Shown here: positions 29,995 through 58,739 of the stretch, one piece after another | How positions within the stretch are numbered: position 1 is the first letter of the stretch | Layout of the letters: each line of letters starts with the position of its first letter | NCBI GenBank assembly: GCA_018457135.1 | Contig: JAGGDU010000241.1 | Location: 1 to 64,000, forward strand | Direction of reading: 5' to 3' | Length of the DNA: 64,000 bases | From: Trichodesmium erythraeum GBRTRLIN201 | GTDB lineage: Bacteria > Cyanobacteriota > Cyanobacteriia > Cyanobacteriales > Microcoleaceae | The notes under the pieces: generated by a model | What the model was told of the DNA's origin: nothing | What the model saw: only the letters and a program-made list of their open reading frames with translations | Database searches by the model: none | Position numbers and translations under genes: made by a program

Positions 29995-30207
29995 ATGGTA
30001 ATGTCAGGAGAAAGAATAGGTATGGATCAAAACGCAAATACTATTATTATGACAATGTCAGCAGACAGCGACGATATTAAGGATCTGCGTCGTGGTGAAG
30101 GTAAGTTATTCAAGAAAATAAAGTATCAAATAGAAGAAATCAAAAATGATTCTTCTGAAGTGGATGAAAAAATACAACCTATAATTGTCATTTTCAAACA
30201 GAAATAG
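29995..30207 (+). CDS. Small ANTI...AQP-module protein A, DUF6200-like
   Basis: 70 residues. The pattern is NANTIIMTMSADSDDIKDLRRGEGKLFKKI...IQPIIVIFKQK: an ANTI strand, a charged RxGEGK segment, a helix and a closing QPxxVxx strand. The same module forms the protein at 30573 and the last 60 residues of the lipase at 57054. GAGGAG lies nine bases before the ATG. An in-frame ATG at codon 3 or 10 could be the true start, but the Shine-Dalgarno spacing favours the first. It resembles, from memory, the uncharacterised DUF6200 proteins. Function unknown; mixed charge and no secretion signal suggest a soluble protein. Confidence 0.78.
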   Translation: MVMSGERIGMDQNANTIIMTMSADSDDIKDLRRGEGKLFKKIKYQIEEIKNDSSEVDEKIQPIIVIFKQK

Positions 30208-30572
30208 AGAAGGAGGATTATTAGGTTAAGAAATTAAGATTCAGAGTAGTTGTTAACCAAGAGTAATTCGGAAAATCTACTAAAAAAAAAAGACTCCTTT
30301 TAATCTTGCTTCAAGTTTTGGAGAGTTCATTCCTTGATTCAGTAACGCCAAAGAATCAACAAAAAGTCAAATCTTCTATAGGTGAGGACTACAAAAAATG
30401 TGCCTAGTTACTAAAAAAATTAGTTGAAAGCATTGCCTAAGAATGGTCGCTTTGAATTAACTATTTTAGTAAATATGTTAGTCCGCGGAGGGCATTCATA
30501 TCCGAAATTAGAGTTTCGATTGTGAATCAGTGATAGCATTCAATTAAAAATTTTGATGAGGAGAAAGAAAAC
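30208..30572. other. Spacer between the tandem small genes
   Basis: 365 bases. Its first 100 bases match the trailer of the next small gene (AGTAGTTGTTAAC...AGTAA.TCGGAA pattern), and its last 30 match the leader of the previous gene (AATTTTGATGAGGAGAAA). The two genes were therefore duplicated together with their flanks. No separate gene is seen. Confidence 0.6.
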
Positions 30573-30779
30573 ATGGTAAAATCTCAAGAAACTGCAGTCC
30601 AAGAAGCGAACACCATTATTCTTGAACTTTCAGGAGATAAGGACGACTATAGTGAATTGATTAAAGGAAAAGGCAAGGTATTTGACAAACTGAGGCGAAC
30701 AATTACCAAACTTAAAGATCAAGGTGAAATTTTAGAAGATGCACAACCTATATGTGTGGTAGTTAAAAAGAAAAGATAA
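30573..30779 (+). CDS. Small ANTI...AQP-module protein B, DUF6200-like
   Basis: 68 residues. It shows QEANTIILELSGDKDDYSEL, KGKGKVFDKLRRTI and ILEDAQPICVVVKKKR, the same module as the protein at 29995 and the lipase tail. It is closer to the lipase tail in EANTI and AQP. The leader TTGATGAGGAGAAA, nine bases before the ATG, is nearly identical to that of protein A. It is the last gene before the glycosyltransferase/PKS run, separated by a possible terminator hairpin. Confidence 0.8.
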   Translation: MVKSQETAVQEANTIILELSGDKDDYSELIKGKGKVFDKLRRTITKLKDQGEILEDAQPICVVVKKKR

Positions 30780-30862
30780 AGATGATTAGGTTGATTAATA
30801 GATTGAGATTTACAGTAGTTGTTAACTCATAGTAACTCGGAACAGCTACTTAGAAAGAAAGA

Positions 30863-30884
30863 ATACCCTTTTTTTTAAGGGTAT
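30863..30884 (+). terminator. Hairpin after small protein B
   Basis: ATACCCTT-TTTTTT-AAGGGTAT is a perfect 8-bp stem with a T-rich loop. No U-tract follows on the + strand, so it may act as an attenuator or a weak terminator ahead of the biosynthetic genes. Confidence 0.5.
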
Positions 30885-30949
30885 CTAAAATAACTCAAAC
30901 AAAAAATAAATCAAGCACCTCAGATAAACAAGGAATTGAAATATACCAA

Positions 30950-32143
30950 GTGAAGATACTATTAGTCTGTACAGAAAAATTACCAGTACCTTGTATACGA
31001 GGTGGAGCTATTCAAACATATATAGATGGTATTTTACCTTACCTAAAACGAGAGCATGAAATTACAGTGTTCTCAGTGGCAGATCCAGAACTACCAGATA
31101 GGGAAACTAGAGAAAATATTCGCTATGAACGTGCCGGTAGAGAAAGTTCTGAGGAATACTATCAAGCTGTAGCAAATTTTGTAGCAAATAGACAATTTGA
31201 TTGGATAGTAATATATAATCGCCCTAAATATTTACCTATAGTGGCTAAGGCTGCCCCAAGTAGTCGCTTTCTACTGAGTATGCACAACGAAATGTTCCAT
31301 GATAAAAAGATTGAACCTGAAGTTGCAACTGTATGTTTGGAGCGAGTAGAAAAAGTAGTCACAGTGAGTAAATTTATTGCTAATGGTATTTGCGAGTTAT
31401 TTCCAGAATATAAACATAAGCTACAACCTGTATATGCGGGAGTAGACCTGAAACGCTTTCAGCCTAAGTGGACAAAATTAGGAGAAGAAAAACGAAAAGA
31501 AATTTTGGCAGCTCATGGTTTAGAAGGTAAACAAGTAATCCTTTGTGTGGGTAGGTTAACAAATAAAAAAGGACCACATCTGTTAATACCTGCGATCACT
31601 AAAGTAATCAAAAAACACCCATCTGCTGTATTATTGTTAGTAGGTAGTAAATGGTATGGTAACAATAATGAAAATGATTATGTCCGTGAAATTAAAACGG
31701 AGGCAGAAAAGTTGGGAGCAGCAGTTCAGATGACAGGTTTTATTTCACCATCTGAAATTGCGGATTACTTTCTGTTAGGTGATATATTTATATGTGCATC
31801 TCAGTGGGAAGAACCTCTAGCTAGGGTACATTACGAGGCTATGGCAACTGGACTATGTACGATTACTACTGCCAGGGGGGGAAACCCTGAAGTAATTGTT
31901 CCAGGTAAAAATGGTATTGTAATTACAGACTACGAAAACCCTGATGCCTTTGCTACTCAGATAGACTACTTATTGTCGAGACCAGAGGAGAGTGAAGAGA
32001 TGGGAAGAACAGGACGCGAGCTAGCTGAATTACATTACAGTTGGTCAAGGGTAGCTTGGGATATTTTGAGTATTATTAATGACTCAAAATCAACGTCTTT
32101 AGAGAAAATGGGGTTAATAGAGCAAGCTCAGGAAGCTGGATAA
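30950..32143 (+). CDS. GT4-family glycosyltransferase
   Basis: 397 residues, GT-B fold. The N-terminal domain starts MKILLVCTEKLPVPCIRGGAIQTYIDG from a GTG codon. The C-terminal donor domain shows ILCVGRLTNKKGPHLLIPAI and the GT4 acidic motif EEPLARVHYEAMATGL. It retains the donor sugar configuration and most likely uses a nucleotide sugar in the cytoplasm. It lies 95 bases upstream of the first PKS gene in the same direction, so it may glycosylate the polyketide or a lipid carrier. Donor and acceptor cannot be predicted. Confidence 0.9.
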   Translation: MKILLVCTEKLPVPCIRGGAIQTYIDGILPYLKREHEITVFSVADPELPDRETRENIRYERAGRESSEEYYQAVANFVANRQFDWIVIYNRPKYLPIVAKAAPSSRFLLSMHNEMFHDKKIEPEVATVCLERVEKVVTVSKFIANGICELFPEYKHKLQPVYAGVDLKRFQPKWTKLGEEKRKEILAAHGLEGKQVILCVGRLTNKKGPHLLIPAITKVIKKHPSAVLLLVGSKWYGNNNENDYVREIKTEAEKLGAAVQMTGFISPSEIADYFLLGDIFICASQWEEPLARVHYEAMATGLCTITTARGGNPEVIVPGKNGIVITDYENPDAFATQIDYLLSRPEESEEMGRTGRELAELHYSWSRVAWDILSIINDSKSTSLEKMGLIEQAQEAG

Positions 32144-32238
32144 ATTGAAGCTGATTTTTTCCAGACTAAGGCTCAGATCAGTAAAGATTATAAATCAAGA
32201 CCTAAAACGTAGGAAAATGAAATATTTGAGTTGATTCT

Positions 32239-35200
32239 ATGAAACAACAACAAAAGAGGGAATTAGTAGCTATTATTGGCATGGCATGTCGATTTCCAGG
32301 AGCAAATGACTATGGTCAGTTCTGGAAAAATATGGAAGCTGGAGTAAATAGTATAAGTGAAATACCCTCCCAAAGGTGGGAAGCAGAAAAGTATTATGCT
32401 CCTATTCCTAATCAACAAAATAAGACGATAAGTAAATGGGCAGGGTTGATAGAAGGAATAGATGAGTTTGATGCCGAGTTTTTTAGTATCTCTCCTAGAG
32501 AAGCAAGAAAGGTAGATCCACAACAGAGAGTTATATTGGAATTGAGTTGGTCTTGTATAGAAGACGCGGGTTATTCACCATCTCAGCTTTCAGGAAAAGA
32601 TGTAGGTGTTTTTATGGGTGCTTGTAATTATGACTCTATTCTCTTGATGAACCGAAATCAAGAAAATATAGAAGGTCATAGTGGAACAGGAACCTGGACT
32701 TGTATGATTCCCAACCGTATCTCTTCATTTTTTAACTGGCACGGTCCAAGTATTCCTATAGATACAGCTTGTTCAAGCTCACTGGTAGCTATTCATTATG
32801 CACTTAAATCTCTCAAAGAATCAGAGTGTGAAATGGCATTGGTAGGTGGTATAAGTGTGTTATTCACCTCAACAACATACATCCAGATGAGTCAACTAGG
32901 GATGTTGTCGCCAACAGGACAATGTAGAACATTTAGCAGCGATGCCAATGGTTATGTGAGGGGAGAAGGAGCTGGAGTAGTTTTATTAAAACCTCTAACA
33001 AAAGCTATAGTAGATGGCGATCATATTTATGGTGTAATTCAAGGGAGTGCAATTAATCACGGAGGAAAAGCTAGAACTATAACATCTCCTAATGTCTACG
33101 CCCAAGCTAAAGTAATTCGTTCAGCCTACATTAACGCTAATATTTCTCCGGATACAGTATCTTATATAGAATCTCATGGAACAGGCACACCATTAGGAGA
33201 CCCAATAGAAATTAATGCTTTGAAAAGAGCCTACAAGCAACTTGCTCAGCAGTATGGAGTCGAAAAAACAGAGAAACCCTACTGTGGTATAGGAGCAGTT
33301 AAAAGTAATATAGGACATTTAGAAGGAGCTGCTGGAATTGCTGGATTAATCAAAGTATTATTAGCAATGAAGTATAAAAAGCTCCCCAAAATTCTCAACT
33401 TCAAGGAATTGAATCCACGCATTAAGATTAAAGATACTCCTTTCTATATCATAGAGGAAAATCAAGAGTGGAAACGATTAAAAAATGAGTTAGGAGAAGA
33501 GATTCCCAGACGTGCAGGTTTAAGTTCTTTTGGTATTGGGGGCGTTAATGCTCATATTGTATTGGAAGAACCTCTAGAAGAAGTAAAAATTAATTTAAGT
33601 GATACTTTAGAGCGTCCACAAGAGATTTTAACTCTCTCAGCGAAGACAGAGAAAGCACTGAGAGAATTAGCCACAAAATATCAAACTTATTTACAATTAG
33701 ACAGTGAAGCATCGCTATCAGATATATGCTTCAGCGCTAATAAAGGTCAGACACATTTTACAAAAAGATTAGCAATAGTAGCAGAGTCAAAGAGGGATTT
33801 ACAGCAAAAATTAGCAGGTTTTCTCCAGGATAATGCGACTCAGGGAGTATTTACAGGAAATTCAGACACTCAGACGATAGCTTTTCTCTTTACTGGTCAA
33901 GGTTCCCAATATGCTGAAATGGGAAGGCAGTTATACGATACTCAACCTACTTTTAAGAAAATTATTGACCAGTGCAGTAAAATTCTGGAAAAATATCTAG
34001 AAGTTTCTTTACTAGATGTACTTTATCCTAATCTCACTATAAAAAAGGAAGAGGTTTCATCTTTAATAGACCAAACAGCTTATACCCAACCTGCTATATT
34101 TGTAATAGAATACGCTCTAGCTAAATTATGGGAATCTTGGGGAATTAAACCAGATGTAGTTATGGGTCACAGTGTTGGTGAATATGTAGCAGCAACAGTA
34201 GCAGGTATTTTTAGTTTAGAAGATGGTCTCAAACTGATTGCAGCAAGGGGACGGTTAATGCAACAGTTACCCGCAGGTGGAGAAATGGTAGCTGTGATGG
34301 CATCAGAAGCAAAAGTGAAAAAGCTCCTCAGACCTTATGCAGAAAAAGTAGCTATCGCAGCAATAAACGGACCAAAAAGTGTAGTTATTTCTGGTGAGGC
34401 GACAGCAGTCAGGGAAATTGTCAGCAGTTTAGAATCAGAAAAAATTAAAACCAAACAATTACAGGTATCTCACGCCTTCCATTCACCATTGATGGAACCA
34501 ATGTTGGCAGAATGGGAAGCAGTAGCTAAGGAACTAACTTATCATCAACCAGAGATTCCAGTCATATCTAATGTCACGGGAACAATAGCAGATAAAAGCA
34601 TCACAACAGCCAAATATTGGGTAGATCATGTACGTCTACCAGTCAGGTTTACTGAAGGTATGGATGCTTTACAGAAACAGGGCGTTGAAATTTTCTTAGA
34701 AGTCGGACCGAAACCAATATTGTTGGGTATGGGTCGCCGATGTCTGCCTAAAGATGTAGGTGTTTGGTTACCATCATTGCGTCTGGGAGTAGATGAGTGG
34801 CAACAGATGTTATCAAGTTTAGGGGAGTTGTATGTACAAGGAGCGAAAGTAGATTGGTCAGGGTTTGACTCCGACTATAGTCGTCAGAAAGTAGCATTAC
34901 CCACATATCCATTCCAACGAGAACGTTATTGGGTAGAAGAAAATGGATATGGGAAAAAGTTATTAAGTAAACAGCAAACAGTAAAGGAACTTCATCCATT
35001 ATTAGGTTACAAAATAAATATTGCAGGTCAACAGCAGATATTTGAATCATTCTTGGGAGCAGAAAAACCAGAATATCTGAAAGACCACAGGGTATTTGAC
35101 GAACCTCTATTCCCGACAACAGGATACCTAGAAATAGCCCTAGCAGCCGGGCAAAACCAGTATAAAACCTCTTGGATAGAAGTAGAAGACCTGAGGATAG

Positions 35201-38200
35201 AAAAAGGCTTAGTATTACTAGAGGGAGAGGTAGAAACAGTTCAGACTATACTAACTCCCCAAGAAAATCAAACCTATCAATTCCAAATATTTTCTCAAGA
35301 GCAACAGGGAGGAACTCAACAATGGGTACTCCATGTAGCCGGAAAAATACAGCAGGCAGCACAACAAGTAGAAGAAGAAAAATTAGATATAGAGAAATAT
35401 TTAGGAGAGTGTGATCGCTCCATAGAAATCAAACAACACTATCAACGTTGTCAGTCCATGGGAATTAGCTATGGTTCAAGCTTCCAAGGGATAAAACAAC
35501 TGTGGAAAGGAGAAAATCAGGCATTAGCCAAACTCGCTATCCCAGAAGCACTAGCAGGAGAAATGGGGGAATATAACATACATCCAGTTATATTAGATGC
35601 AGCACTGCAAGTAATATTCAATGCACTGCCAGAAGCAGAAAACGAAAATCAAACCACATATCTGCCAGTAGGTGTAGAAAAATTAACAACCTACAGCAGC
35701 CCAGAGGAGTCAATGTATGCTTACGGAGTGGTAGATGGAACAGGTGGAGGAAATTGGAAAGCAAACGTCATCCTCAGCACCGAAACAGGAAAGATAGTTG
35801 GGAAAATATCAGGGTTACGAGTAAAAGCAGCAAGTAAAGAAGCCTTACTAGGAAGCAAACAAGAAACAATTAAAGACTTGCTGTATGAAATAGAATGGAG
35901 AAGCAAAGGTCGCTTGGGAAGACTACTACCACCAGATTATTTGCTGGCACCAACAAAAATAGAACAGCAACTACAACCAACCATAAGAGAATTAATAGCT
36001 CAGGCGAATCTAGAAAGCTATCAAGAAATACCAGGAAAATTAGAAGAGTTAAGCCTGGAGTATGTACTCCAAGCAATTAAGGAACTGGGGTGGTATTACA
36101 AAGTAGGAGATAAGTTGAACAGTGAACAGGAAATAGAACGGCTAAGTATAGTACCAAGTCAAAAACAACTATTCAAGCGAATGCTACAAATGTTAGGAGA
36201 AGCAGGAATAATTGAGCCAGTTGTTGGTACAGATGAGTGGAATGTAGTGCAAACATTAGACAACAGTGAAGAACAAGGGCCGAAAAAAGGTGAAAAATTC
36301 CTGAGTGAGTATCCCCAAGCAGCAGCAGAGCTAACACTATTAAACCGTTGTGGCACGGAACTAAGTGGAGTATTGCAAGGAGCAACAGACCCAGTAGAGT
36401 TAGTGTTTCCATCAGGAGATTTGACTGCGGCTACCAGGGTATATCAAGACTCCACCCTCGCTAAATTTATGAACTCCTTAGTAGAAAAAACTATTGCTAC
36501 AGCAATTGAGAAGTTACCAAAGGATCAAGGGATAAGGTTATTAGAAATAGGAGCAGGAACAGGAGGAACGACCAGTTATATTTTACCGACTCTACCAGAA
36601 ACTAATACAGAGTATGTATTTACAGACTTGGGAGTCTTATTTACTACAAAAGCCAAAGAAAGATTCCAGGATTATCCTTATGTAGAATATCGGACATTAG
36701 ATATAGAAGTAGACCCGACAACTCAAGGCTATAATGCTCATCAATATGATGTGATTATTGCAGCTAACGTCCTTCATGCAACAACTAATATCAAGGAAAT
36801 ACTGTCTAATGTGCGAAAACTCCTAGCACCAGGTGGGATATTAGTATTATTTGAAATTACAAGCCGTCAACGATGGCTAGATTTAGTATTCGGACTATTG
36901 GAAGGATGGTGGAGATTTGAAGATCTAGACATACGACCAGACTATCCATTACTGAGTCGCTCTCAGTGGCAAGAGGTATTGATGGGAACAGGGTTTACAG
37001 AAGTAGCCACCTTGCCAGAAGTAGAAGGAATGCCACAGGTATTATCTCAGCAATCTGTTATTATTGCTCAAGCAGACTCAACGGCCTCAGTACCAGATGC
37101 AAAGGGTTGGTTGATCCTAGCAGATAAACAAGGAATTGGCCAACACTTAGCAAGACAACTGGAGTCTTTTGGAGGTGTTTGTACTGTAGTATTTGCTGGT
37201 GAGAAATATCAACAAATCACTCCAGAAGAGTTTACTATTAATCCTGATCGCCCAGAAGACTACGAGCAACTGATGACAGCAGTGGTAGATAAGTCACCGG
37301 CATTGTCTGGAGTTGTGCAATGCTGGACAACAGAATTTGCAGCCACAAAAGAAATAAAAGATTTATCTCGATGGGGATGCGGAACAACATTATTTTTAGT
37401 GCAAGCCTTACTTAAAAGTCGATTACAGCGATTGCCACAGTTATGGTTAGTTACTTCAGGATCTCAACCAGTACCGTTAAATAGTCCTTTGATTCCTGGA
37501 GTCAGTCATTCTTCCCTATGGGGAATGGGGAAAGTTATTAACTTAGAACATCCAGAACTCAATTGTGTTCGTATAGATTTAGACCCAGAAGCAACTGTCG
37601 AGAGTAATGCCAACCTACTATTTAATGAAATCTGGTCAGAGGATAAAGAAGACCAAGTAGCATTACGGGAGAATTCACGCTATGTAGCTCGATTAGTAGC
37701 CAGTCATCATCAGCGAGTAGCAACAGGGGGACTGACAATACCATCACAACCATATAAACTCGGCATATCAGAAAAAAGCAGTTTAGACAAGCTTATTTTA
37801 GAGCCGATTAACAGAAATGCTCCAGCAGCAGGGGAAGTAGAAATTCAAGTCATGGCAACAGGACTGAATTTCCTAGATTTGGTAGCAACATTAGGATTAG
37901 TACCAGATGAAGTAGACGGCGTGTCTCAAAAACACCTGGTAGATATCAATAGATTTGGGGTAGAATGTAGTGGTTATGTAGTTGCAGTGGGAGAAGGAGT
38001 CAAAGGATTAGAAGTAGGAGATATGGCGATCGCTATGGCTCAGGGTAGCTTCAGCCAATATGTCACAGTCAATGCTAGTTATGTAGTGCCGAAGCCAGAA
38101 AATATAACTTTTGAAGAAGCAGCATCAATACCAGCTAACTTCTTAACTGCTTATTATGCCTTACATCACATTGCCAAGATTACTAAAGGCCAACGTATCC

Positions 38201-39894
38201 TGATTCATGCAGCAGCCGGGGGTACAGGTATGGCAGCCGTGCAAATAGCTCAAAAAGCAGGTGCAGAAGTTTTTGCGACAGCAAGTCCTCCTAAATGGGA
38301 AACTCTACGGAAAATGGGAGTCAAATATATTATGAACTCCCGGACTGTGGAGTTTGCCGACCAGGTAATGGAATTTACCGAAGGGCAAGGGGTGGATATA
38401 GTGCTGAACTCCCTAACTTCAGGAGATTTTGTCAGGAAAGGTTTATCAGTAGTCAGTCCTCAAGGTAGGTTTATAGAAATAGCCAAGCGGGGGGTATGGA
38501 AATCTAGCCAAGTAGCAGAAGTAAGGCCAGATATATCCTATTCTATAGTAGATTTGCTGCGAAAGTCTCAGGAAGAACCAGAATTAATCAATTCCATGTT
38601 GCAGGAGTTAACAGCAGATTTCTCCAATAGCTTACTCAAACCAACACCATTAAAAGTATTCCCCATAGAGGAAGTCATCAGTGCCTTCCGTTATATGCAG
38701 CAAGCTAAACATATAGGAAAAATTGTCGTTACTCAGCCAAAACAACCAGACAAACCAGTAAGTTTCCGTGGTGATGCTGCATACTTAATTACAGGAGGTA
38801 TGGGCGGTTTAGGCTTACTAATATCTCGTTGGATGGTGTCCAAAGGAGCTAAACACTTAGTTTTACTGGGGCGTCGGGCACCGAATGAGGTAGTCAAAGA
38901 AAAACTGGTCGAATTGGAAGCAGCAGGGGCATCAGTGACAGTAGAAACATTAGATGTGTCAGACTGGGAAGGGATGAAAGGAGTGATAGAGAGGATTAAT
39001 AACTCAGGCACACCATTAGCAGGGGTAATGCACTCAGTGGGTGTATTATCAGATGGGGTGCTAGAAAATCAAACCTGGTCAAGTTTTGAGCAAGTCATGG
39101 CTCCCAAAGTTCAGGGTAGTTGGTATCTACACCAGTTGACTCAAAATCAATCCTTAGACTTTTTCCTTGTGTTCTCTTCAGTAGCATCTTTATTTGGTTC
39201 CTCTGCTCAGGCAAATCATTCAGCAGCTAACGCTTTTCTGGATGGTTTAGCTCACTATCGTCGCTCTCTAGGATTACCAGGATTAAGTATTCATTGGAGT
39301 ACTATTTCCCAAGTGGGAGAGGCAGCAGAAAGAGGTGCTGATGTGAGGTTGCAAAAACAGGGTATAGCTGCTTTGACTCCCACTGAGGTATTAGAATCTC
39401 TAGAAGTGTTAATGAGTAGTAACGCTAACACTGAGGTAGCAGTAGTAGATATTGATTGGTCAAAGTGGCAAGAAAGAGCATCCCAATGGAGGTTTTTAGC
39501 AGATTGGGAGGGAGTTGTTGCGGGAGTTATAGGCACAGAAACTAGGCTTTTAGAACAACTAAAAGAATCCTCATCAGAGGAGCAAGAAAAAATGTTAGTG
39601 GATTACCTCAAAGGTAAAGTAGCTAATATTTTTGGCACAACAACTGGCAAAATCATGGATATAGAGCAACCATTAACTACTATGGGACTTGACTCTTTGA
39701 TGGCAGTTGAGCTACGGAATCTCATCCAAAGGGAATTGGGATTTGATATACCTATGCAAACAATAATTGAAGGTATTAGTATTTCGGAAATAGTCGATCT
39801 AGTATCTGAGCAGCTATTGTTAGAACAAGTTAGTTACTCAAATACTTCACCAACTGAAGAAATCGATGAAGATATGGAGGAAATTACTCTATGA
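32239..39894 (+). CDS. Fully reducing type I PKS: KS-AT-DH-cMT-ER-KR-ACP
   Basis: 2551 residues. KS: Cys178 (DTACSSS), His313 (SHGTGT), His360 (GHLEG). AT: FTGQGSQ, Ser645 in GHSVGEY, and HAFHS at 745-749, which predicts malonyl-CoA. DH: His950 in HRVFDEPLFP (Gly of HxxxGxxxxP replaced by Asp) and Asp1120 in DAALQ. cMT: LEIGAGTGG at about 1435-1443. ER: LIHAAAGGTGM near 1990. KR: TGGMGGLG near 2186, but the catalytic Tyr position is His2327 (QANHSAAN). ACP: Ser2486 in GLDSLM. The acidic C-terminal tail (EEIDEDMEEITL) suits docking to the TubC-type domain of the next protein. No loading domain is present, so the starter is supplied in trans or the module acts iteratively. Its stop overlaps the next start (ATGA). 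Confidence 0.95.
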   Translation: MKQQQKRELVAIIGMACRFPGANDYGQFWKNMEAGVNSISEIPSQRWEAEKYYAPIPNQQNKTISKWAGLIEGIDEFDAEFFSISPREARKVDPQQRVILELSWSCIEDAGYSPSQLSGKDVGVFMGACNYDSILLMNRNQENIEGHSGTGTWTCMIPNRISSFFNWHGPSIPIDTACSSSLVAIHYALKSLKESECEMALVGGISVLFTSTTYIQMSQLGMLSPTGQCRTFSSDANGYVRGEGAGVVLLKPLTKAIVDGDHIYGVIQGSAINHGGKARTITSPNVYAQAKVIRSAYINANISPDTVSYIESHGTGTPLGDPIEINALKRAYKQLAQQYGVEKTEKPYCGIGAVKSNIGHLEGAAGIAGLIKVLLAMKYKKLPKILNFKELNPRIKIKDTPFYIIEENQEWKRLKNELGEEIPRRAGLSSFGIGGVNAHIVLEEPLEEVKINLSDTLERPQEILTLSAKTEKALRELATKYQTYLQLDSEASLSDICFSANKGQTHFTKRLAIVAESKRDLQQKLAGFLQDNATQGVFTGNSDTQTIAFLFTGQGSQYAEMGRQLYDTQPTFKKIIDQCSKILEKYLEVSLLDVLYPNLTIKKEEVSSLIDQTAYTQPAIFVIEYALAKLWESWGIKPDVVMGHSVGEYVAATVAGIFSLEDGLKLIAARGRLMQQLPAGGEMVAVMASEAKVKKLLRPYAEKVAIAAINGPKSVVISGEATAVREIVSSLESEKIKTKQLQVSHAFHSPLMEPMLAEWEAVAKELTYHQPEIPVISNVTGTIADKSITTAKYWVDHVRLPVRFTEGMDALQKQGVEIFLEVGPKPILLGMGRRCLPKDVGVWLPSLRLGVDEWQQMLSSLGELYVQGAKVDWSGFDSDYSRQKVALPTYPFQRERYWVEENGYGKKLLSKQQTVKELHPLLGYKINIAGQQQIFESFLGAEKPEYLKDHRVFDEPLFPTTGYLEIALAAGQNQYKTSWIEVEDLRIEKGLVLLEGEVETVQTILTPQENQTYQFQIFSQEQQGGTQQWVLHVAGKIQQAAQQVEEEKLDIEKYLGECDRSIEIKQHYQRCQSMGISYGSSFQGIKQLWKGENQALAKLAIPEALAGEMGEYNIHPVILDAALQVIFNALPEAENENQTTYLPVGVEKLTTYSSPEESMYAYGVVDGTGGGNWKANVILSTETGKIVGKISGLRVKAASKEALLGSKQETIKDLLYEIEWRSKGRLGRLLPPDYLLAPTKIEQQLQPTIRELIAQANLESYQEIPGKLEELSLEYVLQAIKELGWYYKVGDKLNSEQEIERLSIVPSQKQLFKRMLQMLGEAGIIEPVVGTDEWNVVQTLDNSEEQGPKKGEKFLSEYPQAAAELTLLNRCGTELSGVLQGATDPVELVFPSGDLTAATRVYQDSTLAKFMNSLVEKTIATAIEKLPKDQGIRLLEIGAGTGGTTSYILPTLPETNTEYVFTDLGVLFTTKAKERFQDYPYVEYRTLDIEVDPTTQGYNAHQYDVIIAANVLHATTNIKEILSNVRKLLAPGGILVLFEITSRQRWLDLVFGLLEGWWRFEDLDIRPDYPLLSRSQWQEVLMGTGFTEVATLPEVEGMPQVLSQQSVIIAQADSTASVPDAKGWLILADKQGIGQHLARQLESFGGVCTVVFAGEKYQQITPEEFTINPDRPEDYEQLMTAVVDKSPALSGVVQCWTTEFAATKEIKDLSRWGCGTTLFLVQALLKSRLQRLPQLWLVTSGSQPVPLNSPLIPGVSHSSLWGMGKVINLEHPELNCVRIDLDPEATVESNANLLFNEIWSEDKEDQVALRENSRYVARLVASHHQRVATGGLTIPSQPYKLGISEKSSLDKLILEPINRNAPAAGEVEIQVMATGLNFLDLVATLGLVPDEVDGVSQKHLVDINRFGVECSGYVVAVGEGVKGLEVGDMAIAMAQGSFSQYVTVNASYVVPKPENITFEEAASIPANFLTAYYALHHIAKITKGQRILIHAAAGGTGMAAVQIAQKAGAEVFATASPPKWETLRKMGVKYIMNSRTVEFADQVMEFTEGQGVDIVLNSLTSGDFVRKGLSVVSPQGRFIEIAKRGVWKSSQVAEVRPDISYSIVDLLRKSQEEPELINSMLQELTADFSNSLLKPTPLKVFPIEEVISAFRYMQQAKHIGKIVVTQPKQPDKPVSFRGDAAYLITGGMGGLGLLISRWMVSKGAKHLVLLGRRAPNEVVKEKLVELEAAGASVTVETLDVSDWEGMKGVIERINNSGTPLAGVMHSVGVLSDGVLENQTWSSFEQVMAPKVQGSWYLHQLTQNQSLDFFLVFSSVASLFGSSAQANHSAANAFLDGLAHYRRSLGLPGLSIHWSTISQVGEAAERGADVRLQKQGIAALTPTEVLESLEVLMSSNANTEVAVVDIDWSKWQERASQWRFLADWEGVVAGVIGTETRLLEQLKESSSEEQEKMLVDYLKGKVANIFGTTTGKIMDIEQPLTTMGLDSLMAVELRNLIQRELGFDIPMQTIIEGISISEIVDLVSEQLLLEQVSYSNTSPTEEIDEDMEEITL
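34237..34769. repeat. 533-bp AT segment identical to 46340-46872 (copy 1)
   Basis: Read base by base, this part of the first PKS AT domain is identical to the AT of the third megasynthase gene (constant offset 12103), while the flanking sequence diverges. The segment covers the AT from just after the active site through the HAFHS specificity region. Confidence 0.9.
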
Positions 39895-50095: not shown

Positions 50096-50165
50096 AATTG
50101 AGAATTTAGAATTGAGAATTCAGAATTGAGAATTAAGGAGTTAGGAGTCAGTTATCAGCTCACAG
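50092..50165. repeat. GAATTGAGAATT short tandem repeats
   Basis: A degenerate run of AATTGAGAATT/TAGAATTGAGAATT units fills the spacer between the third and fourth synthase genes, followed by GGAGTTAGGAGTCAGTTATCAG. Such simple repeats are common in filamentous cyanobacterial spacers. An unusual poly-C run lies near 50207. Confidence 0.7.
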
Positions 50166-50259
50166 TTATTAGTCTTGCCTAAAGATACTGAACTCCTCCA
50201 CTCCCCCCCCCACTCCAATACTCCCTATTCCCTAATATTTACTAAAGAAGGAATTAAAC

Positions 50260-53200
50260 ATGGAACCTAGCTCCGAAACTATTCAACTCTCAAATCAGCA
50301 ACGTCTTTTATTAGCAGTTAAACAAGCAACTGCTAAATTAAATGAAATAGAAACAGCAACCACCGAACCAATAGCAATTATTGGTACTGCTTGTCGTTTT
50401 CCAGGGGGTGTTGATACTCCAGAGTCTTACTGGGAATTTCTCAGGGAATCAATAGATGGCAGAGTAGAGATTCCTAAAGAGCGATGGGATAATGACCTCT
50501 ACTACAACCCCGACCCAGAAGCACCAGGTCAAATATACGTTCGTCATGGTTATTTTCTCCAACAACCAGTAGACCAGTTTGACCCCGCTTTTTTCAGTAT
50601 TTCTGGGGTAGAAGCAAATAAGATGGACCCATCACAACGACTTTTGTTGGAGGTAACTTGGGAAGCATTAGAAAATGCAGGTATTTCACCCAGGAGTTTG
50701 AAAAATACTGATACTGGAGTATATATAGGTCAATGTTTTAATGATTATGCCTTGATTGGTATAAATGCTTTACCTAATAACTTTGGTGATTTTTATTTAG
50801 GTCTAGGTACAGCGATGAATACTTCATCGGGTCGGGTGGCTTATGCTTTTGGGTTACAAGGACCAACTTTTACTCTGGATACAACTTGCTCCTCGTCCTT
50901 AGTTACTTTGCACATAGCTTGTCAGAGTTTGCGGAGTGGAGAATCTAACCTTGCTCTGGTGGGTGGAGTAAATTTAATGCTTCATCCCAATGTTACTCAT
51001 GGATTCTGTAAAGGTCGAGCATTATCCCCTGATAGTCGTTGTAAGACTTTTGATGCTAGTGCTGATGGTTATGCTAGGGGAGAGGGTTGTGGTATTATTG
51101 TTGCCAAACGTCTTCGGGATGCTGTGGCAGATGGCGATCGCATTTTGGCTCTGGTGAAAGGTTCTGCTATTAACCATGATGGCCCTAGTAGTGGACTGAC
51201 AGTTCCTAATCAACAGGCACAAAAGAAGGTAATTCGGCAAGCTTTGGTAAATGCTAAGGTAGACCCGTTAGCAGTTGACTATGTTGAATGTCACGGTACG
51301 GGAACTTCTCTGGGAGATCCTCTGGAGGTCAAAGCTATTGATGAGGTTTATTGTCGAGAAAGAAGTAAGGATGACCCTCTGGTTTTGGGTGCGGTTAAAA
51401 GTAATGTGGGGCACTTAGAAGCTGCTGCCGGGGTTGCAGGTTTAATTAAAATTATTTTGGCTCTGCAAAACAAGGAAATTCCACCTAATCTTCATTTTAA
51501 TCAACCTAACCCTCAAATTGATTGGGATAAAATTCCGGTGCAGGTGGCAACAAGTGTTGTACCTTGGGAAAAACCAGGTAAACCTCTTTTGGCAGGAATT
51601 AGCGGATTTGGTATGAGTGGGACTAATGCTCATGTAATTTTACAGGAAGCACCAGAACAAGTTAAAAGTAAAAATGATACAGATAGATCCCTTCATTTAT
51701 TAACTCTGTCAGCTAAAACTAAAAAAGCTTTGGAGAAGTCGGTTGTTCGTTATCAAAATTATCTAGCACAAGAGAATAATGGGAATGAGTTAGCTGATAT
51801 TTGTTATACAGCTAACACAGGACGTACCCATTTCAATCATAGGTTAGCAGTTATCGCAGCTAATCAAGCAGAATTATTGGAGAAATTAAGCGCTGGTTTA
51901 ACTGGGGAGGAAATATTCTCTGGACAGGTATCTAGTAGCAGTTTACCAAAGGTGGCTTTCTTATTCACTGGTCAAGGTTCCCAATACGTTAATATGGGTC
52001 GGAGATTATATGAGCAAGCACCAGTTTTCCGACAGGCGATCGACCAATGTAATCAAATTTTCACTACAATTGTTGAGGAGCAAGCAGAATCAGAGGAAAT
52101 GTCTCTGTTAGATGTCATATATTCTGATACTACAGAAGATTCTGATTCATCTCCACTACACCAAACTGCTTATACTCAACCAGCACTATTTTCTATTGAA
52201 TATGCTTTGGCTAAATTATGGCAGTCTTGGGGAATTCAACCAGATGTAGTCATGGGCCATAGTGTGGGTGAATATGTTGCAGCAACAATAGCAGGAATTT
52301 TTAGTTTAGAAGACGGATTAAAGTTAATTACTGCTAGGGGACAATTAATGCAACAGTTACCTTCTGGTGGTGAAATGGTTTCTGTTATGGCCTCAGAGTC
52401 AAAAATACGCCCTCTCCTAAAAAATTACACAGATCAAGTGGCTATGGCAGCGATTAATGGGCCAGCAAGTGTGGTGATTTCTGGAGAGTCAGAAGGGGTA
52501 AGAGCGATCGCTACTAAGTTAAAGTCGGAAAGAATTAAAACGAAACAACTGCAAGTATCCCATGCTTTTCATTCACCTCTAATGGAACCAATGTTATCTG
52601 AGTTTGAAGCTATAGCTAATCAAATTGATTATAGTATACCCAGGATACCGATAATATCTAACGTCACTGGGGCAAAGGCAGATAGTAGTATTACTACTGC
52701 TAAATATTGGGTAAATCATGTCCGACAACCAGTTAAGTTTGCCCAAAGTATGAATGCTTTACACCAACAGGGAGTTGATATTTTCCTAGAAGTCGGAGCA
52801 AAACCAATATTATTAGGTATGGGCCGTCGGTGTTTACCAGAAGATGTAGGTGTGTGGTTACCATCATTACGCCCTAATGTGGATGAATGGCAGCAAATAC
52901 TTTCTAGTCTATCAGAATTATACGTTCGGGGAGCCAAAATAGATTGGTCAGGGTTTGATGGAGATTATCAGCGACAAAAAGTGACTTTACCTAATTATCC
53001 TTTCGAACGTCAACGGTATTGGATAGAAAGTGAGAAGTCAGGGTTATCAGGATCGACTGTTTCTCAAATAACAGAAACGGCAACAGAAACTTTAACTAAG
53101 CAACTGGCAGAAACTGGTAATCTTTCAGCAAGCGAACTGAAGTTAGTGCCAAAAATACTGGATTTGCTCAAACAACAACAGTTAAAATCTGTTACAGAGT

Positions 53201-54324
53201 CGGACCAAAAGTATACAGAATTAGAAGACTTAGTTTCCCCTTCGTCAATAATAGATATTGAGAAGTTTCAAGCTGCTTCGAGAAAAGAACAGAAGTTGAT
53301 GATAGTAGAGTATTTGCAAGAATTGGCAATGAAGGTACTGCAACTGAATACTTCTGAGGTTTTAGACCCCAATGAATCTGTTCTAGAACTAGGTTTTGAT
53401 TCTTTGAGCGTTGTAGAACTTCGGAGCAAAGTCGAAAAACAACTAGCAGTAACTATTCCTGCCAGCTTAATTTTGCAAGGTCCTAGCATTATGGAATTAG
53501 CAGAAGCATTGGTTGAACAATTAACTAATAGCGGCTCATCTGACCAAGGTCCCGTTAAGAGCAAAAAAGGAAGTGGTTGGATTGCATACCACAAACCTAA
53601 ACTTAATGCAAGTACCCGTTTATTCTGTTTTCACCCATGGGGTGCTAGTGCTTCTATGTATCAACAATGGTCTGATGCTTTGCCTCCAGAAATAGAAGTT
53701 TTACCCATTCAACTACCAGGTAGGCAAAGGCGTATTCAGGAAAAACCATTTACAGATTTTGCAAGTCTAATAGAGGTTTTAGCAGATTTCCTTTCTCCTT
53801 ATTTGGATAAACCTTTTGCTTTCTTTGGTCATAGCATGGGAGGGTTCATTGCTTTTGAGCTTGCCTATTTTCTGGAAAAACAATATAATTTGAAACCAAG
53901 ACACTTATTTTTGAGTGGTGTTGTTCCACCATCAGACAATACTTTCTTAGAAAAAATAGGATCTCTTTCAGAAACAGAACGACTTAATTATCTTCTAGAA
54001 ATTTCAGAAATTCCAGAAAGTATTACTGAAGATTCATCCCTTTTCCATGAGTTAATGAATATCTTTAAGGCAGATTTTCAACTGTTACAAAGTTATCGTT
54101 ATCTAGAGAAAAAGCCACTAGATTTCCCAATCTCCAGTTTTAGTGGAGTAGATGATTATACGATTAGCGATCGCCAACTTAATAATTGGTCTAAGTATAC
54201 TACCAGCAACCTAAAAATAGATAGGATACCTGGTAAACATATGTTTATGTTCTTGAAAGATAGCCAAAAATTACTTTTGGAGCTGATTTCTCAAGAACTT
54301 TTACCACAATTAATTGCTCAATAA
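50260..54324 (+). CDS. Terminal type I PKS: KS-AT-ACP-TE
   Basis: 1354 residues. An N-terminal docking helix ([25 protein letters not shown]) is followed by KS with Cys210 (DTTCSSS) and the [10 protein letters not shown] and [11 protein letters not shown] motifs. AT has Ser668 (GHSVGEY) and HAFHS, indicating malonyl-CoA. No reductive domain follows. ACP has Ser1048 (GFDSLS). The thioesterase has [11 protein letters not shown], Ser1192 in GHSMGG and His1327, and belongs to the type II/GrsT-like class. This is the last module: its extension unit should keep a beta-keto group unless modified in trans, and the TE releases the chain. A strong terminator follows within 10 bases. Confidence 0.95.
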
Positions 54325-54331
54325 ATTATTA

Positions 54332-54355
54332 GGGTGCAGATTTTGCACCCTTTTT
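54332..54355 (+). terminator. Strong rho-independent terminator of the PKS operon
   Basis: GGGTGCA-GATTT-TGCACCC forms a perfect 7-bp GC-rich stem followed at once by TTTTT, starting eight bases after the stop codon of the terminal PKS. It separates the synthase transcript from the downstream tailoring genes. Confidence 0.93.
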
Positions 54356-54690
54356 GAATAAAATTAGGGAGTATTGACTTAATCAAAGAATAACGATTTA
54401 ATTCTTCAAAAGTATACTTTTAGACAGGTTTATAGTATAAGCCAGTTTGTATAACCGTGTTATACCATTTCTCAAAAAAAATTCTACATTTTTTGCAGTA
54501 TGAGAGTAGGGAATTAGAGAAGTAAGGGAATAGTAAACATAAGAATAACTAACATTAACTTAGCTAAATAGAGTAGTAAAGTTATTAATTATTTAAGAAC
54601 TGAAGTTTTACTTAAGTTTAGTATTCATTTTGGTAATTTGTATAATGCTTGTATTTATAACAAAATACAACCAAACTAGGAGAAAAAAGA
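54356..54690. promoter_or_regulatory. Promoter region of the lipocalin-like gene
   Basis: 335-base AT-rich spacer after the terminator. It presumably contains the promoter for the downstream tailoring genes. An AGGAGAAAA Shine-Dalgarno sits just before the ATG at 54691. No defined operator was seen. Confidence 0.45.
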
Positions 54691-55179
54691 ATGAGTGATA
54701 ATTTAATCTCAAAAGATAATTTAGTTGGTACTTGGAAACTTGCTGATTTTTATACTATTGATTCAAAACAAAAAATTGCTTACCCCTTTGGTAAAAATCC
54801 TACAGGCTATCTTATATATACTGAAAATGGATATATGTCTGTGTTAATTATGACGACTAATCGCCCACTTCTTGGCCTATCAGTGGAAGAAATGCAAGAT
54901 TTGAAAAGTCCTAAGTTAGGAATAAAATTAATTGCTAATCTTGGTAAATATATTAAGGCTACTTTGAGATATTTTAGTGCTGGTAGAAATTGTCTTTCTT
55001 ACAGTGGTAGGTATGAAATACGAGACAGTACAGTTATTCACCATATTGAAGTTAGCCTAGTTCCTGATTGGGTTGGTTTAGACTTTGAACGTAATGTAGA
55101 ATTTTCAGAAGGCCAAATTATACTTACTAATATGTTAAGAGATACATCCTTTAACTTAACTTGGAAACTGGTTCCTTAA
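54691..55179 (+). CDS. Lipocalin-like domain protein
   Basis: 162 residues. NLVGTWKLADFYTID, YPFGKNPTGYLIYTENGYMSVLIM and the spaced beta-strand pattern fit the Lipocalin_5 (PF13924-like) family. No signal peptide; cytoplasmic. Relatives occur in several polyketide and terpenoid gene clusters, where some act as isomerases or cyclases, so a role in shaping or hydrating the product is possible but unproven. It is a good candidate tailoring enzyme because it lies directly after the PKS terminator and 143 bases before a monooxygenase. Confidence 0.8.
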   Translation: MSDNLISKDNLVGTWKLADFYTIDSKQKIAYPFGKNPTGYLIYTENGYMSVLIMTTNRPLLGLSVEEMQDLKSPKLGIKLIANLGKYIKATLRYFSAGRNCLSYSGRYEIRDSTVIHHIEVSLVPDWVGLDFERNVEFSEGQIILTNMLRDTSFNLTWKLVP

Positions 55180-55322
55180 GATCTTTGATTAAAAATAATT
55201 TGATGTTCCATAATTAGGCAAAGTTAGAATAGTTGTATAGCCTGTTTGTTATATTTTCTGATCTAAATGCTTACCTCAATAAATATACATACAATATATA
55301 AAAAATTGTTAGAGCAATTATA

Positions 55323-56804
55323 ATGAATAATCAAATTTCTAGTAACCCAGACCAAAACTTAGAAATTGCTATCATTGGTGCTGGAATATCTGGTCTGTGT
55401 ATGGCAATTAATCTCAGAAAAGCTGGCATTACAACTTTCAAAATTTTTGAAAAATCAGATAATGTAGGCGGTACATGGCACGATAATACATACCCTAGTT
55501 GTGGTTGTGATACACCATCTATTTTATATTCATTTTCCTTTGAACCTAAAAGTGACTGGACGCGACACTTTCCCAAACAACCAGAAATTCTAGAATATCT
55601 AGAACACTGTTCTAAGAAATATGATATCAGAAAACATATTACTTTTAATACAGAAATTAGTAGCGCTTTTTTTGACTCAGAAAAAAATATTTGGCGTATT
55701 TATAGTGCCTCTGGGGAAGAATTTTCTGCGAATATTTTAGTTAGTGGTTGCGGACAATTAAATAAACCCAAAATTCCTCATCTTGATGGTCTAGAAACAT
55801 TTTCGGGAACTCAATTTCATTGCGCTCGTTGGAATCACGAACACGATCTAAAAGATGAAACAGTAGCAGTAATTGGTACTGGTGCAAGTGCAATTCAGTT
55901 TATTCCTATTATTGCTGAACAGGTGAAAAAGTTAATTGTTTTTCAACGTAGCGCGCCATGGATCGCACCTAAACCAGATTTTAAATTTACAAATTTTATT
56001 CATTGGTTAGGCAAGAGTTTCCCATTTATTCTTAGATTTTACCGATGGTTATTGTATTTAGTCCTAGAATATTTTGTTGTTTATTTAACAATAAAACAAA
56101 ATACTATCGTTGGAAAACTTGTTAGTACTTTCCTCAACTTCCAAAGGGAGAAAATTATCAAAGATGAAAATCTTAAATCTATTCTAAAACCTAACTATGA
56201 AGTTGGTTGTAAGCGCATTTTAATTTCCAATGATTATTATCCAGCTCTACAACTTCCTAATGTAGAGGTAGTTGCTCAGGATATTAAAGGGATTAATCAG
56301 AATCAAATTATTACCAAAGAAGGGAGAGAATATCCCGTAGATACTTTGATATTTGCTACAGGATTTGATACCAAACTTTTGTCCTCAATTAAAATTGTTG
56401 GTTTAAACAATCAATTGCTACAGGACAAATGGCAAGATGGAGCAGAAGCCTATAAAGGCATTATGATTCCCGAATTTCCAAATTTGTTTATGTTGTATGG
56501 ACCTAATACAAATACAGGAACTCAGTCAATTATTTTCATGGTTGAATGTCAAGTTAATTACATTATTTCTTGTATCAAAATGATGCAGAATAAATCGCAG
56601 AAATATTTGGATGTGAAGCCTGATATTAATTCTGAGTATAACCAAAAATTACAAGTTGCAGCTAGTCAAACCGTGTGGAATAGTGGTTGTAGCAGTTGGT
56701 ACAAAACAAAAACAGGCAAAATCGTCAATAACTGGCCTTTTTCAACTGTACGTTATTGGCTCACAACTTCTCAAGCTGATCCCAAAGACTTTAATTTTTC
56801 TTAA
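55323..56804 (+). CDS. Baeyer-Villiger-type flavin monooxygenase
   Basis: 493 residues. The FAD Rossmann motif is IAIIGAGISGLCMAIN; GGTWHDNTYPSCGCDTP follows. The BVMO fingerprint FxGxxxHxxxW appears as FSGTQFHCARWN, with Asn in the last position. The NADPH Rossmann motif is VAVIGTGASAIQF, and the terminal part has FPNLFMLYGPNTNTG. It should insert oxygen next to a ketone (ester or lactone formation) or oxidise a heteroatom, using NADPH and O2. The beta-keto unit expected from the last PKS module would be a plausible target. ATG start. Confidence 0.9.
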   Translation: MNNQISSNPDQNLEIAIIGAGISGLCMAINLRKAGITTFKIFEKSDNVGGTWHDNTYPSCGCDTPSILYSFSFEPKSDWTRHFPKQPEILEYLEHCSKKYDIRKHITFNTEISSAFFDSEKNIWRIYSASGEEFSANILVSGCGQLNKPKIPHLDGLETFSGTQFHCARWNHEHDLKDETVAVIGTGASAIQFIPIIAEQVKKLIVFQRSAPWIAPKPDFKFTNFIHWLGKSFPFILRFYRWLLYLVLEYFVVYLTIKQNTIVGKLVSTFLNFQREKIIKDENLKSILKPNYEVGCKRILISNDYYPALQLPNVEVVAQDIKGINQNQIITKEGREYPVDTLIFATGFDTKLLSSIKIVGLNNQLLQDKWQDGAEAYKGIMIPEFPNLFMLYGPNTNTGTQSIIFMVECQVNYIISCIKMMQNKSQKYLDVKPDINSEYNQKLQVAASQTVWNSGCSSWYKTKTGKIVNNWPFSTVRYWLTTSQADPKDFNFS

Positions 56805-57053
56805 CCTGTTCTTAAAGGCGATAATTATTTTGTCAAAATACTTTTGCGTAGATCAAAAAAATCTTATATACTTAAAGAGAGTACAGTTTTTGTTTTTAAC
56901 AAAAAATAATAAGGACAAAATGAATTATTAATTAATTGGGTCTATATTTGATTTTACAGCCAGCTTGTATGTGTTCTCCTCAGGCCTTATCTTGTCAATG
57001 CTTTTTTCAAATTATCCAGTTTTGCACCACTAATTAATTAAGGAGAGATCATA
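56805..57053. other. Spacer before the lipase gene
   Basis: 249 bases, AT-rich, ending in AAGGAGAG seven bases before the GTG start of the lipase gene. No other feature is seen. Confidence 0.5.
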
Positions 57054-58739
57054 GTGGCAACAACATATCAAACTTTACAAAAAAAACCTAAAGCACCTAA
57101 AGCACCATCAACAGAATACACTTGGGAACAGATAGTTATATCCCATATATGGATAATATACTGCATTTCATTCCCTTATTCTTATGTAGGTTCAAAAGAA
57201 TATTTACAACAACTATCTACTGAATCAGTTCAGAGAATTTTAGCTAATCCAAGAGTTAAAAAGTTGATTGGAAAATGGGAACTTGTATGGGGTATGTCTA
57301 TTTATCAATTCCCAGGTTCTGGAGTGAATGACAATACACTCTACATTGCCAAGTACAATGATAACAATCCAGAAAAAGATACTTATGTTCTTTCTGTAGC
57401 TGGAACAAATATGAAGTCATTTTACAGTATTCTTTGTGAAGACGGCGGTGTGTTCTCAACTAAAGAATGGAACAATGGTCAACCCTGGAACAGCCCACCA
57501 AACTTTCAATCTACTACTGAACCATCAATATCTACAGGATTTACAAGGACCTTGGATAAGTTATTTAATAAGACTAAGGATAGTAATGGTACTCTTGTTA
57601 TGGAAGCTCTCCAAAAAATAACCAGCAGCTCTAGCAAGCCAGTAGATTTGATAGTAGTAGGTCACAGTTTAGCTGGTACTATGTCTCCACTTGTGGCTCT
57701 AGCATTATTTGAACGTCAGTCAGAGTGGGATAGCAAAGGTATCGCTACAATCAAAGAAGTTTGGGCTATAGCCGGACCAACTCCGGGAAATCCAGCTCTT
57801 CAGGAATATTATACATCAAAACTTGGTGACAAAACTCAAAGTTTATGGTCTGAGCTTGACATTGTTCCTAATTGTTTCGCTAGGGAAGGTATGACTGGAG
57901 TGGCTAGCTTATATGAGCCTGACATTCCCTCTAGTCCTTTGGTTGAGATTATTATGCAGGCATTTAATAAGTCAATTGAACGTCATAACTATCAACATAT
58001 CATCCCTCAGCCTGCTTATACTGGAAAGGTTAATAATGACTTCCGCATTGAAAATATTAACAAATATCCTGAAGTTAAAGAGTTTATTGCGGATCAGTGT
58101 GCTGCAATGCTACTCTACGCTTTTCTAAGTAGCTTAGAAGATATGTCTAATGTAATAGAAGACATTCCATTTGTCGGTAGAGCTTTTGAACCCCTTAAAG
58201 GTAAATTAGATTATCTCGTAAAATCATCCACTTTTATCGTCTCAAAGTTTTTTGCTCAAGTTATTGATGCAGGTGTAACAGTAGTCCTTATTGAGGATAA
58301 AATTGAGTCAGTTTTTGAGGAAGTACTCGATCACATTGGTCTTACAGTGCCTATCTCTGTTGTTATGTCTGTTCTTCCTGGTGATTTAATTCTTGGTCAT
58401 AACATTATTAATTTGATGGATTGGTATATGCAGTTCTATTTCCAGCACGTAGACCAATATGTTGGATATTATGGTGTTGATGAACTTTACGGTATCAAGG
58501 CAGATATTACAAGTGAAGTAGAGGCAAGACTTGGAAAGGAAGAGAACAAGAAGCAAGAAGCTAATACTATTCTTCTGAATTATGGTAAAGCCAAAAATGA
58601 CGATATTAAAGATTTGTATCGTGGGGAAGGTAAGCTACTTGATGGAATATCTGATGTTGTTGCGGAATTGAAGCAGTCAGGTGATGTAGAGAAGAATGCA
58701 CAACCTCTAGTTGTAATAGTTGAGAAAAAGAGAGACTAG
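57054..58739 (+). CDS. Class-3-like lipase with C-terminal ANTI...AQP module
   Basis: 561 residues from a GTG with a strong AAGGAGAG site. The core has DTYVLSVAGTNMKSFYSIL (oxyanion-side strand), VDLIVVGHSLAGTMSPLVALAL and EVWAIAGPTPGNPAL, matching the alpha/beta-hydrolase lipase-3 fold. The nucleophile elbow is GHSLA (Ser205), with Ala207 in place of the second Gly of GxSxG. The C-terminal 60 residues (QEANTILLNYGKAK...RGEGKLLDGI...AQPLVVIVEKKRD) repeat the fold of the small proteins at 29995 and 30573. Likely an esterase or acyl-transfer enzyme acting on the polyketide or a lipid; no signal peptide is evident. Degraded paralogues lie at 59265 and 62139. Confidence 0.88.
   Translation: MATTYQTLQKKPKAPKAPSTEYTWEQIVISHIWIIYCISFPYSYVGSKEYLQQLSTESVQRILANPRVKKLIGKWELVWGMSIYQFPGSGVNDNTLYIAKYNDNNPEKDTYVLSVAGTNMKSFYSILCEDGGVFSTKEWNNGQPWNSPPNFQSTTEPSISTGFTRTLDKLFNKTKDSNGTLVMEALQKITSSSSKPVDLIVVGHSLAGTMSPLVALALFERQSEWDSKGIATIKEVWAIAGPTPGNPALQEYYTSKLGDKTQSLWSELDIVPNCFAREGMTGVASLYEPDIPSSPLVEIIMQAFNKSIERHNYQHIIPQPAYTGKVNNDFRIENINKYPEVKEFIADQCAAMLLYAFLSSLEDMSNVIEDIPFVGRAFEPLKGKLDYLVKSSTFIVSKFFAQVIDAGVTVVLIEDKIESVFEEVLDHIGLTVPISVVMSVLPGDLILGHNIINLMDWYMQFYFQHVDQYVGYYGVDELYGIKADITSEVEARLGKEENKKQEANTILLNYGKAKNDDIKDLYRGEGKLLDGISDVVAELKQSGDVEKNAQPLVVIVEKKRD

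Follow-up and report, generated by a model that had tools for sequence, protein, structure and literature searches.

DUF6200 (PF19702) and DUF6312 (PF19831) are entered in Pfam as families of unknown function. The described proteins closest to the system reported here are the UbiB/COQ8/ABC1 kinases (PF03109), among them yeast Coq8, Cqd1 and Cqd2, a family marked by the motifs KxGQ, AAAS and HxDxHPGN. Two genes of this family have been described in the tiancimycin enediyne cluster; there, deletion of tnmR3 (AarF/ABC1/UbiB family) impaired growth and lowered the titre about fivefold, the growth effect was relieved without iodine, which the product needs, and the authors read this as negative regulation, whereas loss or overexpression of tnmR2, also of the ABC1 family, had no such effect on production (PMC9464397). 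Little else joining an AarF/UbiB/ABC1 kinase with a polyketide or enediyne was found, and no paper naming DUF6200 or DUF6312 was found within a literature scope that excluded most subscription papers and all bioRxiv preprints. We analysed a stretch of 64,000 nucleotides from Trichodesmium erythraeum GBRTRLIN201 (assembly GCA_018457135.1, contig JAGGDU010000241.1, positions 1 to 64,000; hereafter the window), in which two free DUF6200 proteins, a free DUF6312 protein and a lipase ending in a DUF6200 tail accompany a cluster of polyketide synthase (PKS) genes. New with respect to Pfam are the co-occurrence of the two families as a pair, their use as C-terminal tails and their link to PKS genes and to a distinct ABC1/UbiB-like group; by profile and similarity searches, DUF6312 and this ABC1 group are steadier companions of DUF6200 than the lipase.

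An initial annotation of the window had placed three open reading frames (ORFs) at 29995-30207 (70 residues), 30573-30779 (68 residues) and 57054-58739 (561 residues), all on the forward strand, had claimed a common order of motifs in them and had likened them to DUF6200 proteins. The frames are where it put them, each preceded by a purine-rich, ribosome-site-like stretch (by eye), the motif order holds, and that family is the right one: the two free proteins (Pfam E 1.8e-15 and 7.9e-16) score 56.8 and 57.9 bits against PF19702 and the lipase tail 63.4 bits (E 1.5e-17, residues 495-560). Because all three exceed the curated cut-off of 26.9 bits, their resemblance reflects homology rather than chance, and the module indeed occurs both free and fused. 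The second free protein is 46% and the lipase tail 45% identical to the first, and a whole-genome search located the tail at 58536-58733 (forward strand, 68.4 bits). Two further parts, which the initial annotation had not named, go with these modules. The first is a free DUF6312 protein of 96 residues, lysine-rich and with an isoelectric point of 10.2, encoded at 28745-29035 (forward strand) and likewise a member of its family by profile score (105.2 bits against PF19831, E 2.2e-30, curated cut-off 27). The second, at the window's right end, is an ABC1/UbiB-like kinase gene on the reverse strand, recognised by profile and tree, which occupies 63141-64000 and runs past the window end (591 residues in full, contig 63141-64916). 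PADLOC and PHROGs gave no match for either DUF or for the lipase, and a sequence search of the PDB with DUF6200 yielded nothing convincing (a designed protein came first with E 0.0015, and 4l3u reached E 0.04). A charge pairing of acidic DUF6200 with basic DUF6312 was dropped, since by eye the charges look swapped in Azospirillum and both planctomycete partners look basic.

The model of the free 68-residue protein (pLDDT 80.3, pTM 0.60) has a strand-helix-helix-strand order (residues 15-21, 23-30, 35-49 and 60-66), and the same elements return in the model of the lipase (pLDDT 72.4), at 506-513, 515-522, 527-542 and 552-558, after a low-confidence linker stretch at 496-503. Foldseek returned nothing significant for the DUF6200 model (best E-value 2.7). 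Its best structural matches are 4-oxalocrotonate tautomerases, likewise small beta-alpha-beta proteins, with a VIA-align Z of 3.4 (root-mean-square deviation 2.4 over 48 residues) that lies in the range of common arrangements. Members of the tautomerase superfamily carry a catalytic proline directly after the initiator methionine; unlike them, both free window proteins start with MV, and in the 68-residue protein the first predicted strand begins at residue 15. A resemblance of this strength was not used, and kinship was rejected.

Genome-wide searches covered cyanobacteria and planctomycetes. Among 386 cyanobacterial genomes, DUF6200 was matched in seven at E 0.001 and in six over cut-off, and DUF6312 in five and four, respectively, all four lying within the six; among 294 genomes of Planctomycetota, each family occurs in three, and these are the identical three genomes. 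Matches below cut-off (DUF6200 in G152, DUF6312 in G343) were excluded from the counts, and neither family was matched in 14 control genomes. Within the genus, five of seven genomes have DUF6200. The Trichodesmium genome itself (G000) has five DUF6200 and two DUF6312 matches, and its contig C237 carries a second DUF6312-DUF6200-DUF6200-GT4 set, whose DUF6312 covers only the first half of the profile. That contig also has (L008 619-6054) a reverse-transcriptase-like ORF with several variable formylglycine-enzyme-like protein ends nearby, an arrangement that by eye resembles a diversity-generating retroelement. Named relatives come from Okeania, Hydrocoleum, Moorena, Roseofilum, an unclassified cyanobacterium and a planctomycete, and two pairs, reached through DUF6312 and then identified by profile, lie over cut-off on plasmids of Methylosinus trichosporium OB3b (DUF6312 110.6 bits, DUF6200 98.7 bits) and Azospirillum argentinense (48.5 and 41.1 bits). 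By profile membership, the two families are thus present in three bacterial phyla. No relative turned up when viral contigs were scanned with one DUF6200 protein, and tblastn of one DUF6200 protein against plasmids and phages gave no match.

The ABC1 protein of the window scores 208.2 bits against PF03109 (cut-off 22.9) and carries the motifs KAGQ, AAASIAQ and HADLHPGN. At E 1e-80 or better, a limit fixed before the result was seen, it matched six of the 386 cyanobacterial genomes, exactly the six with DUF6200 over cut-off; weaker ABC1 matches do not appear at this limit, which may hide remoter members. Among the ABC1 sequences collected, those of a group of 21 scored E 4e-76 or better and all others 2e-49 or worse. 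The group comes from cyanobacteria, planctomycetes and Methylosinus, and 15 of its 21 members lie near a DUF6200 gene. Incomplete or merged sequences (L098, L101, L107 and partial copies) were left out of the tree, in which 17 further ABC1 proteins, taken from five of these genomes, served for comparison. A branch with support 96/95 divides the 21 from these 17, and none of 500 shuffles was as good; on this tree, the group is separate. A PF03109 search of 17 genomes with DUF6200 found ABC1 on the same contig as DUF6200 in 12, and the only two ABC1 matches in the whole of G392 both lie within its DUF6200 locus. At E 1e-60, the ABC1 query matched four of 199 planctomycete genomes, namely the three with both DUFs and G456; this limit, too, may conceal remoter members. 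Of the members away from DUF6200, one (G401 C50) is near a ketosynthase-like ORF and another (G396 C36) near a protein with AMP-binding, ketoreductase, carrier and thioesterase domains.

The group shares the ABC1 domain of the UbiB/COQ8 kinases, with KxGQ in 19, AAAS in 17 and HxDxHPGN in 17 of the 21 members and all three together in 16, the exceptions being Methylosinus and four planctomycete sequences. It differs from known UbiB/COQ8 proteins in forming a separate group with PKS and DUF neighbours, in reading HxDLHPGN in those 17 members against HADPHPGN in six of seven other ABC1 proteins checked, and in an IPTPLI-like N-terminal motif, present in 15 of 21 members and in none of those seven. 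The ABC1 protein has hydrophobic stretches at its end (by eye) and is probably membrane-bound. Planctomycetes G466, G392, G401 and G456 have tandem ABC1 pairs (L070 7469-11192, L102 5948-9655, L072 7241-10850), and in both G466 pairs one member reads HANLHPDN and the other HGDLHPGN; the two may be one active and one inactive partner. PADLOC gave only weak kinase-like matches for the ABC1 protein (best E 9.6e-8), and the protein (L085 3142-4917) matches the phage family phrog_9248, of unknown function (E 3.1e-59). A DUF6208 (PF19713) protein lies beside the system in G306, with a 35%-identical relative beside the ABC1-PKS locus of G456 (L030 9246-10238, L141 2633-3730).

Linkage to PKS genes was assessed over 25 distinct DUF6200 loci, the number left once duplicates from different searches had been combined and the G152 match below cut-off discarded; presence and absence of a ketosynthase were scored from partly different scans. 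A ketosynthase lies within 20 kb of DUF6200 in 14 of the 25 (G000 C241, G001 C553, G002, G003 C1114, G219, G306, G039, G051, G466, G394, G396, Okeania L046, Methylosinus and Azospirillum), and five more loci are on contigs shorter than 18 kb (G001 C181, G003 C1351, G006 C128, G395 C78, L049). Chance nearness is unlikely in the Trichodesmium genome because ketosynthase matches are few there: five at E 1e-20 among the matches listed, three of them in the window cluster. Both plasmid pairs are near PKS genes with separate acyltransferase genes, a pattern we label trans-AT. That the modules bracket the PKS genes, as the initial annotation had it, is correct for the window, where the free modules are upstream of the glycosyltransferase and PKS genes and the tail downstream; it does not carry over to the second set on C237, where the whole 69 kb contig gave no ketosynthase match. 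A patatin-like protein in L034 (5418-6314) and condensation/PapA-like acyltransferases in L034 (2612-3910) and L031 (12481-13782) were also seen; such proteins would suit lipid-like polyketide products.

In all clear fusions found, the module is at the C-terminus. DUF6200 tails occur on Lipase_3 proteins (G000, G001, G003, G219, G394), on a repeat protein of G306 with weak, below-cut-off matches to carbohydrate-binding modules (CBMs), and on a LamG protein of G039 with a relative in G051; DUF6312 tails occur on LamG proteins (G219, G394, G395). All eight genomes with a DUF6200 tail also encode free DUF6200. The tail of the LamG gene beside ABC1 is DUF6312 in L031 and DUF6200 in L034, a swap suggesting that both tails would address one assembly. 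Regular repeats resembling a CRISPR array lie next to the LamG-DUF6200 locus (L034 10387-11463, by eye).

Taken as an interaction module, DUF6200 would belong to a PKS-linked accessory system in which the DUF6312-DUF6200 pair scaffolds a UbiB-type ATPase that mobilises polyketide, with the tails docking clients; this is the reading we favour, at somewhat short of an even chance. Its parts would be the distinct ABC1/UbiB (COQ8-like) ATPase, the pair, and clients with a C-terminal DUF6200 or DUF6312 tail. UbiB proteins are the best functional clue to the mechanism: the ABC1 protein may use ATP to extract or hand over a hydrophobic polyketide, in cyanobacteria perhaps a glycosylated one, at the membrane. 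Free DUF6312 and DUF6200 would assemble on this protein or around it as a scaffold, where the tails would dock lipase, LamG and CBM-like proteins, so that all act on one substrate. A broader version, which we consider doubtful, treats the two families as a bacterial address-tag system, the free pair serving as receptor on a UbiB-type lipid-extraction ATPase and the tails recruiting proteins to the polyketide exit site; it would have spread across three phyla or more together with PKS clusters.

Several observations weigh against the scaffold reading. Odds computed for the co-occurrence disregard kinship and ascertainment and were not taken as probabilities. Prior knowledge of their DUF6200 had brought the Trichodesmium genome and G392 into the samples, the score gap served at first to define the ABC1 group, and the 25 loci are not independent, including several orthologues within one genus; by our own grouping, they reduce to about seven lineages with PKS genes and about three without. 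In six of the 25 (G000 C237, G364 C270, G364 C90, G392, G401 and Moorena G393), the stretch read has no ketosynthase, the two G364 loci having been read over just 18 kb and 10 kb; a strict dependence on PKS was rejected on this ground. The parts also come apart: the PF19831 search gives no DUF6312 in G039 and G051, the G039 candidate being borderline (E 5e-4 once its own row is excluded), ABC1 is on another contig than DUF6200 in five of 17 genomes (G002, G003, G006, G396, G401), and the Azospirillum stretch shows no ABC1 gene. In G456, a tandem ABC1 pair beside PKS genes has no DUF6200 or DUF6312 within 38 kb, so the DUFs are not always needed. Finally, AcrB-type RND pumps, found in all three planctomycete DUF6200 loci (G392, G401 and G466; L072 2974-7212, L069 4745-9040, L070 2-2944), would be in line with the system exporting a product, and they equally suit the view that the tails are secretion signals.

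According to that view, the tails would be read by an exporter for C-terminal signals, and the free modules would be either carriers that are themselves exported or chaperone-like subunits. Domains such as LamG, CBM and lipase are often found outside the cell, and the tailed proteins lack an evident N-terminal signal (by eye). Beside the pumps, G392 and G401 encode an HlyD-like protein, and their RND proteins have a C-terminal TPR array; G392 adds a cNMP-binding/C39 peptidase protein and a PPIC rotamase. One Moorena DUF6200 (G364 C90; L033 8885-9151, the same as L026 1507-1773) has an apparent N-terminal signal peptide (by eye), and within the 10 kb read there, neither ABC1 nor DUF6312 was matched. 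Against this, no exporter is annotated in the two plasmid stretches, where Azospirillum has sulfonate/taurine import genes, and none was noticed in the cyanobacterial loci, whose neighbours were scanned in part; moreover, secretion signals of this kind are not typically folded domains that occur as free proteins too. On balance, we regard secretion as unlikely.

A little less probable still is that the ABC1 kinase and the DUF pair form a regulatory or self-protection unit shielding the producer from its polyketide rather than a transport scaffold. Regulation leaves the tails on lipases and lectins unexplained. The case for it comes from TnmR3, likewise encoded by an ABC1-family gene in a PKS-type cluster, which affected titre and also growth, the latter in connection with the making of the product, and it is tempered by tnmR2, which had no effect on production; TnmR3, a candidate relative of the window group, belongs to an actinomycete enediyne cluster, and the available parts of that report make no mention of DUF6200 or DUF6312 (PMC9464397).

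The initial annotation had seen DUF6200 as an accessory subunit or dimer tag of a lipase that acylates or moves the polyketide, which we now consider improbable. The window protein at 57054-58739 is a class 3 lipase by profile (PF01764, 38.7 bits, cut-off 22) and motif (GHSLAG at residue 203, the GxSxG nucleophile motif, and DIVP at 269), with predicted hydrolytic activity. The refuting outcomes named there did not occur: a lipase-DUF6200 fusion with free DUF6200 and PKS genes recurs in Roseofilum, of another cyanobacterial family, and 14 of the 25 loci have a ketosynthase within 20 kb. The lipase is nevertheless no general partner: the stretches read around DUF6200 in G306, G039, Moorena, the three planctomycetes and the two plasmids gave no match to its query, and LamG and CBM-like proteins carry tails as well. 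A role in polyketide acylation found no support. That mobile PKS islands carry the DUFs along by chance, for which two plasmid loci and a patchy distribution might speak, is already unlikely, the least credible of these readings, given that unrelated families share identical genome sets and that the pair stays adjacent even in a Moorena locus without PKS genes and spans three phyla.

The remaining genes of the window cluster are all on the forward strand. The free modules are followed by a GT4-type glycosyltransferase (30950-32143; PF00534, E 2.3e-38), a frequent neighbour of the DUF6312-DUF6200 pair in cyanobacterial loci, and by an assembly line in the order PKS, nonribosomal peptide synthetase, PKS, PKS, with a thioesterase at its end, all assigned with Pfam. 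Its first module (32239-39894) has ketosynthase, acyltransferase, dehydratase, C-methyltransferase, enoylreductase, ketoreductase and acyl carrier protein domains; the peptide synthetase module (39891-44252) has a TubC docking domain and condensation, adenylation and peptidyl carrier domains. The third (44366-50095) has ketosynthase, acyltransferase, dehydratase, ketoreductase and acyl carrier domains, and the last (50260-54324) has ketosynthase, acyltransferase, acyl carrier and thioesterase domains. Downstream are a lipocalin-like protein (54691-55179; PF13924, E 7.9e-29), whose relatives also lie near the lipase fusion in Roseofilum, an FMO-like flavin monooxygenase (55323-56804; PF00743, E 9.4e-18), the tailed lipase (Lipase_3 E 1.2e-9) and a second FMO-like flavin monooxygenase (60009-61928; PF00743, E 5.9e-58). 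Between the latter and the ABC1 gene sits a decayed second lipase copy with several in-frame stops (approximately 62130-62950; 28% identity, 95 bits at 62232-62780), which has a longer relative ended by a contig end (L036 1-1406). Left of 28 kb, all 13 ORFs of at least 120 residues were scanned and gave no link to PKS or to DUF6200/DUF6312; they include Roc-COR, histidine kinase, permease and sugar kinase genes and the clock genes KaiA and KaiC (11277-14643).

To our knowledge, how strongly hydrophobic polyketides leave their synthase and mature at the membrane is poorly understood, and the recurring set of a UbiB-type ATPase, DUF6312 and DUF6200 near PKS genes is a concrete candidate for handling them. 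One member is in a model methanotroph, Methylosinus trichosporium OB3b. If the proposed system is real, two Pfam families of unknown function would gain a first context, UbiB biology would extend beyond quinones, and a marker for finding such clusters would be at hand.

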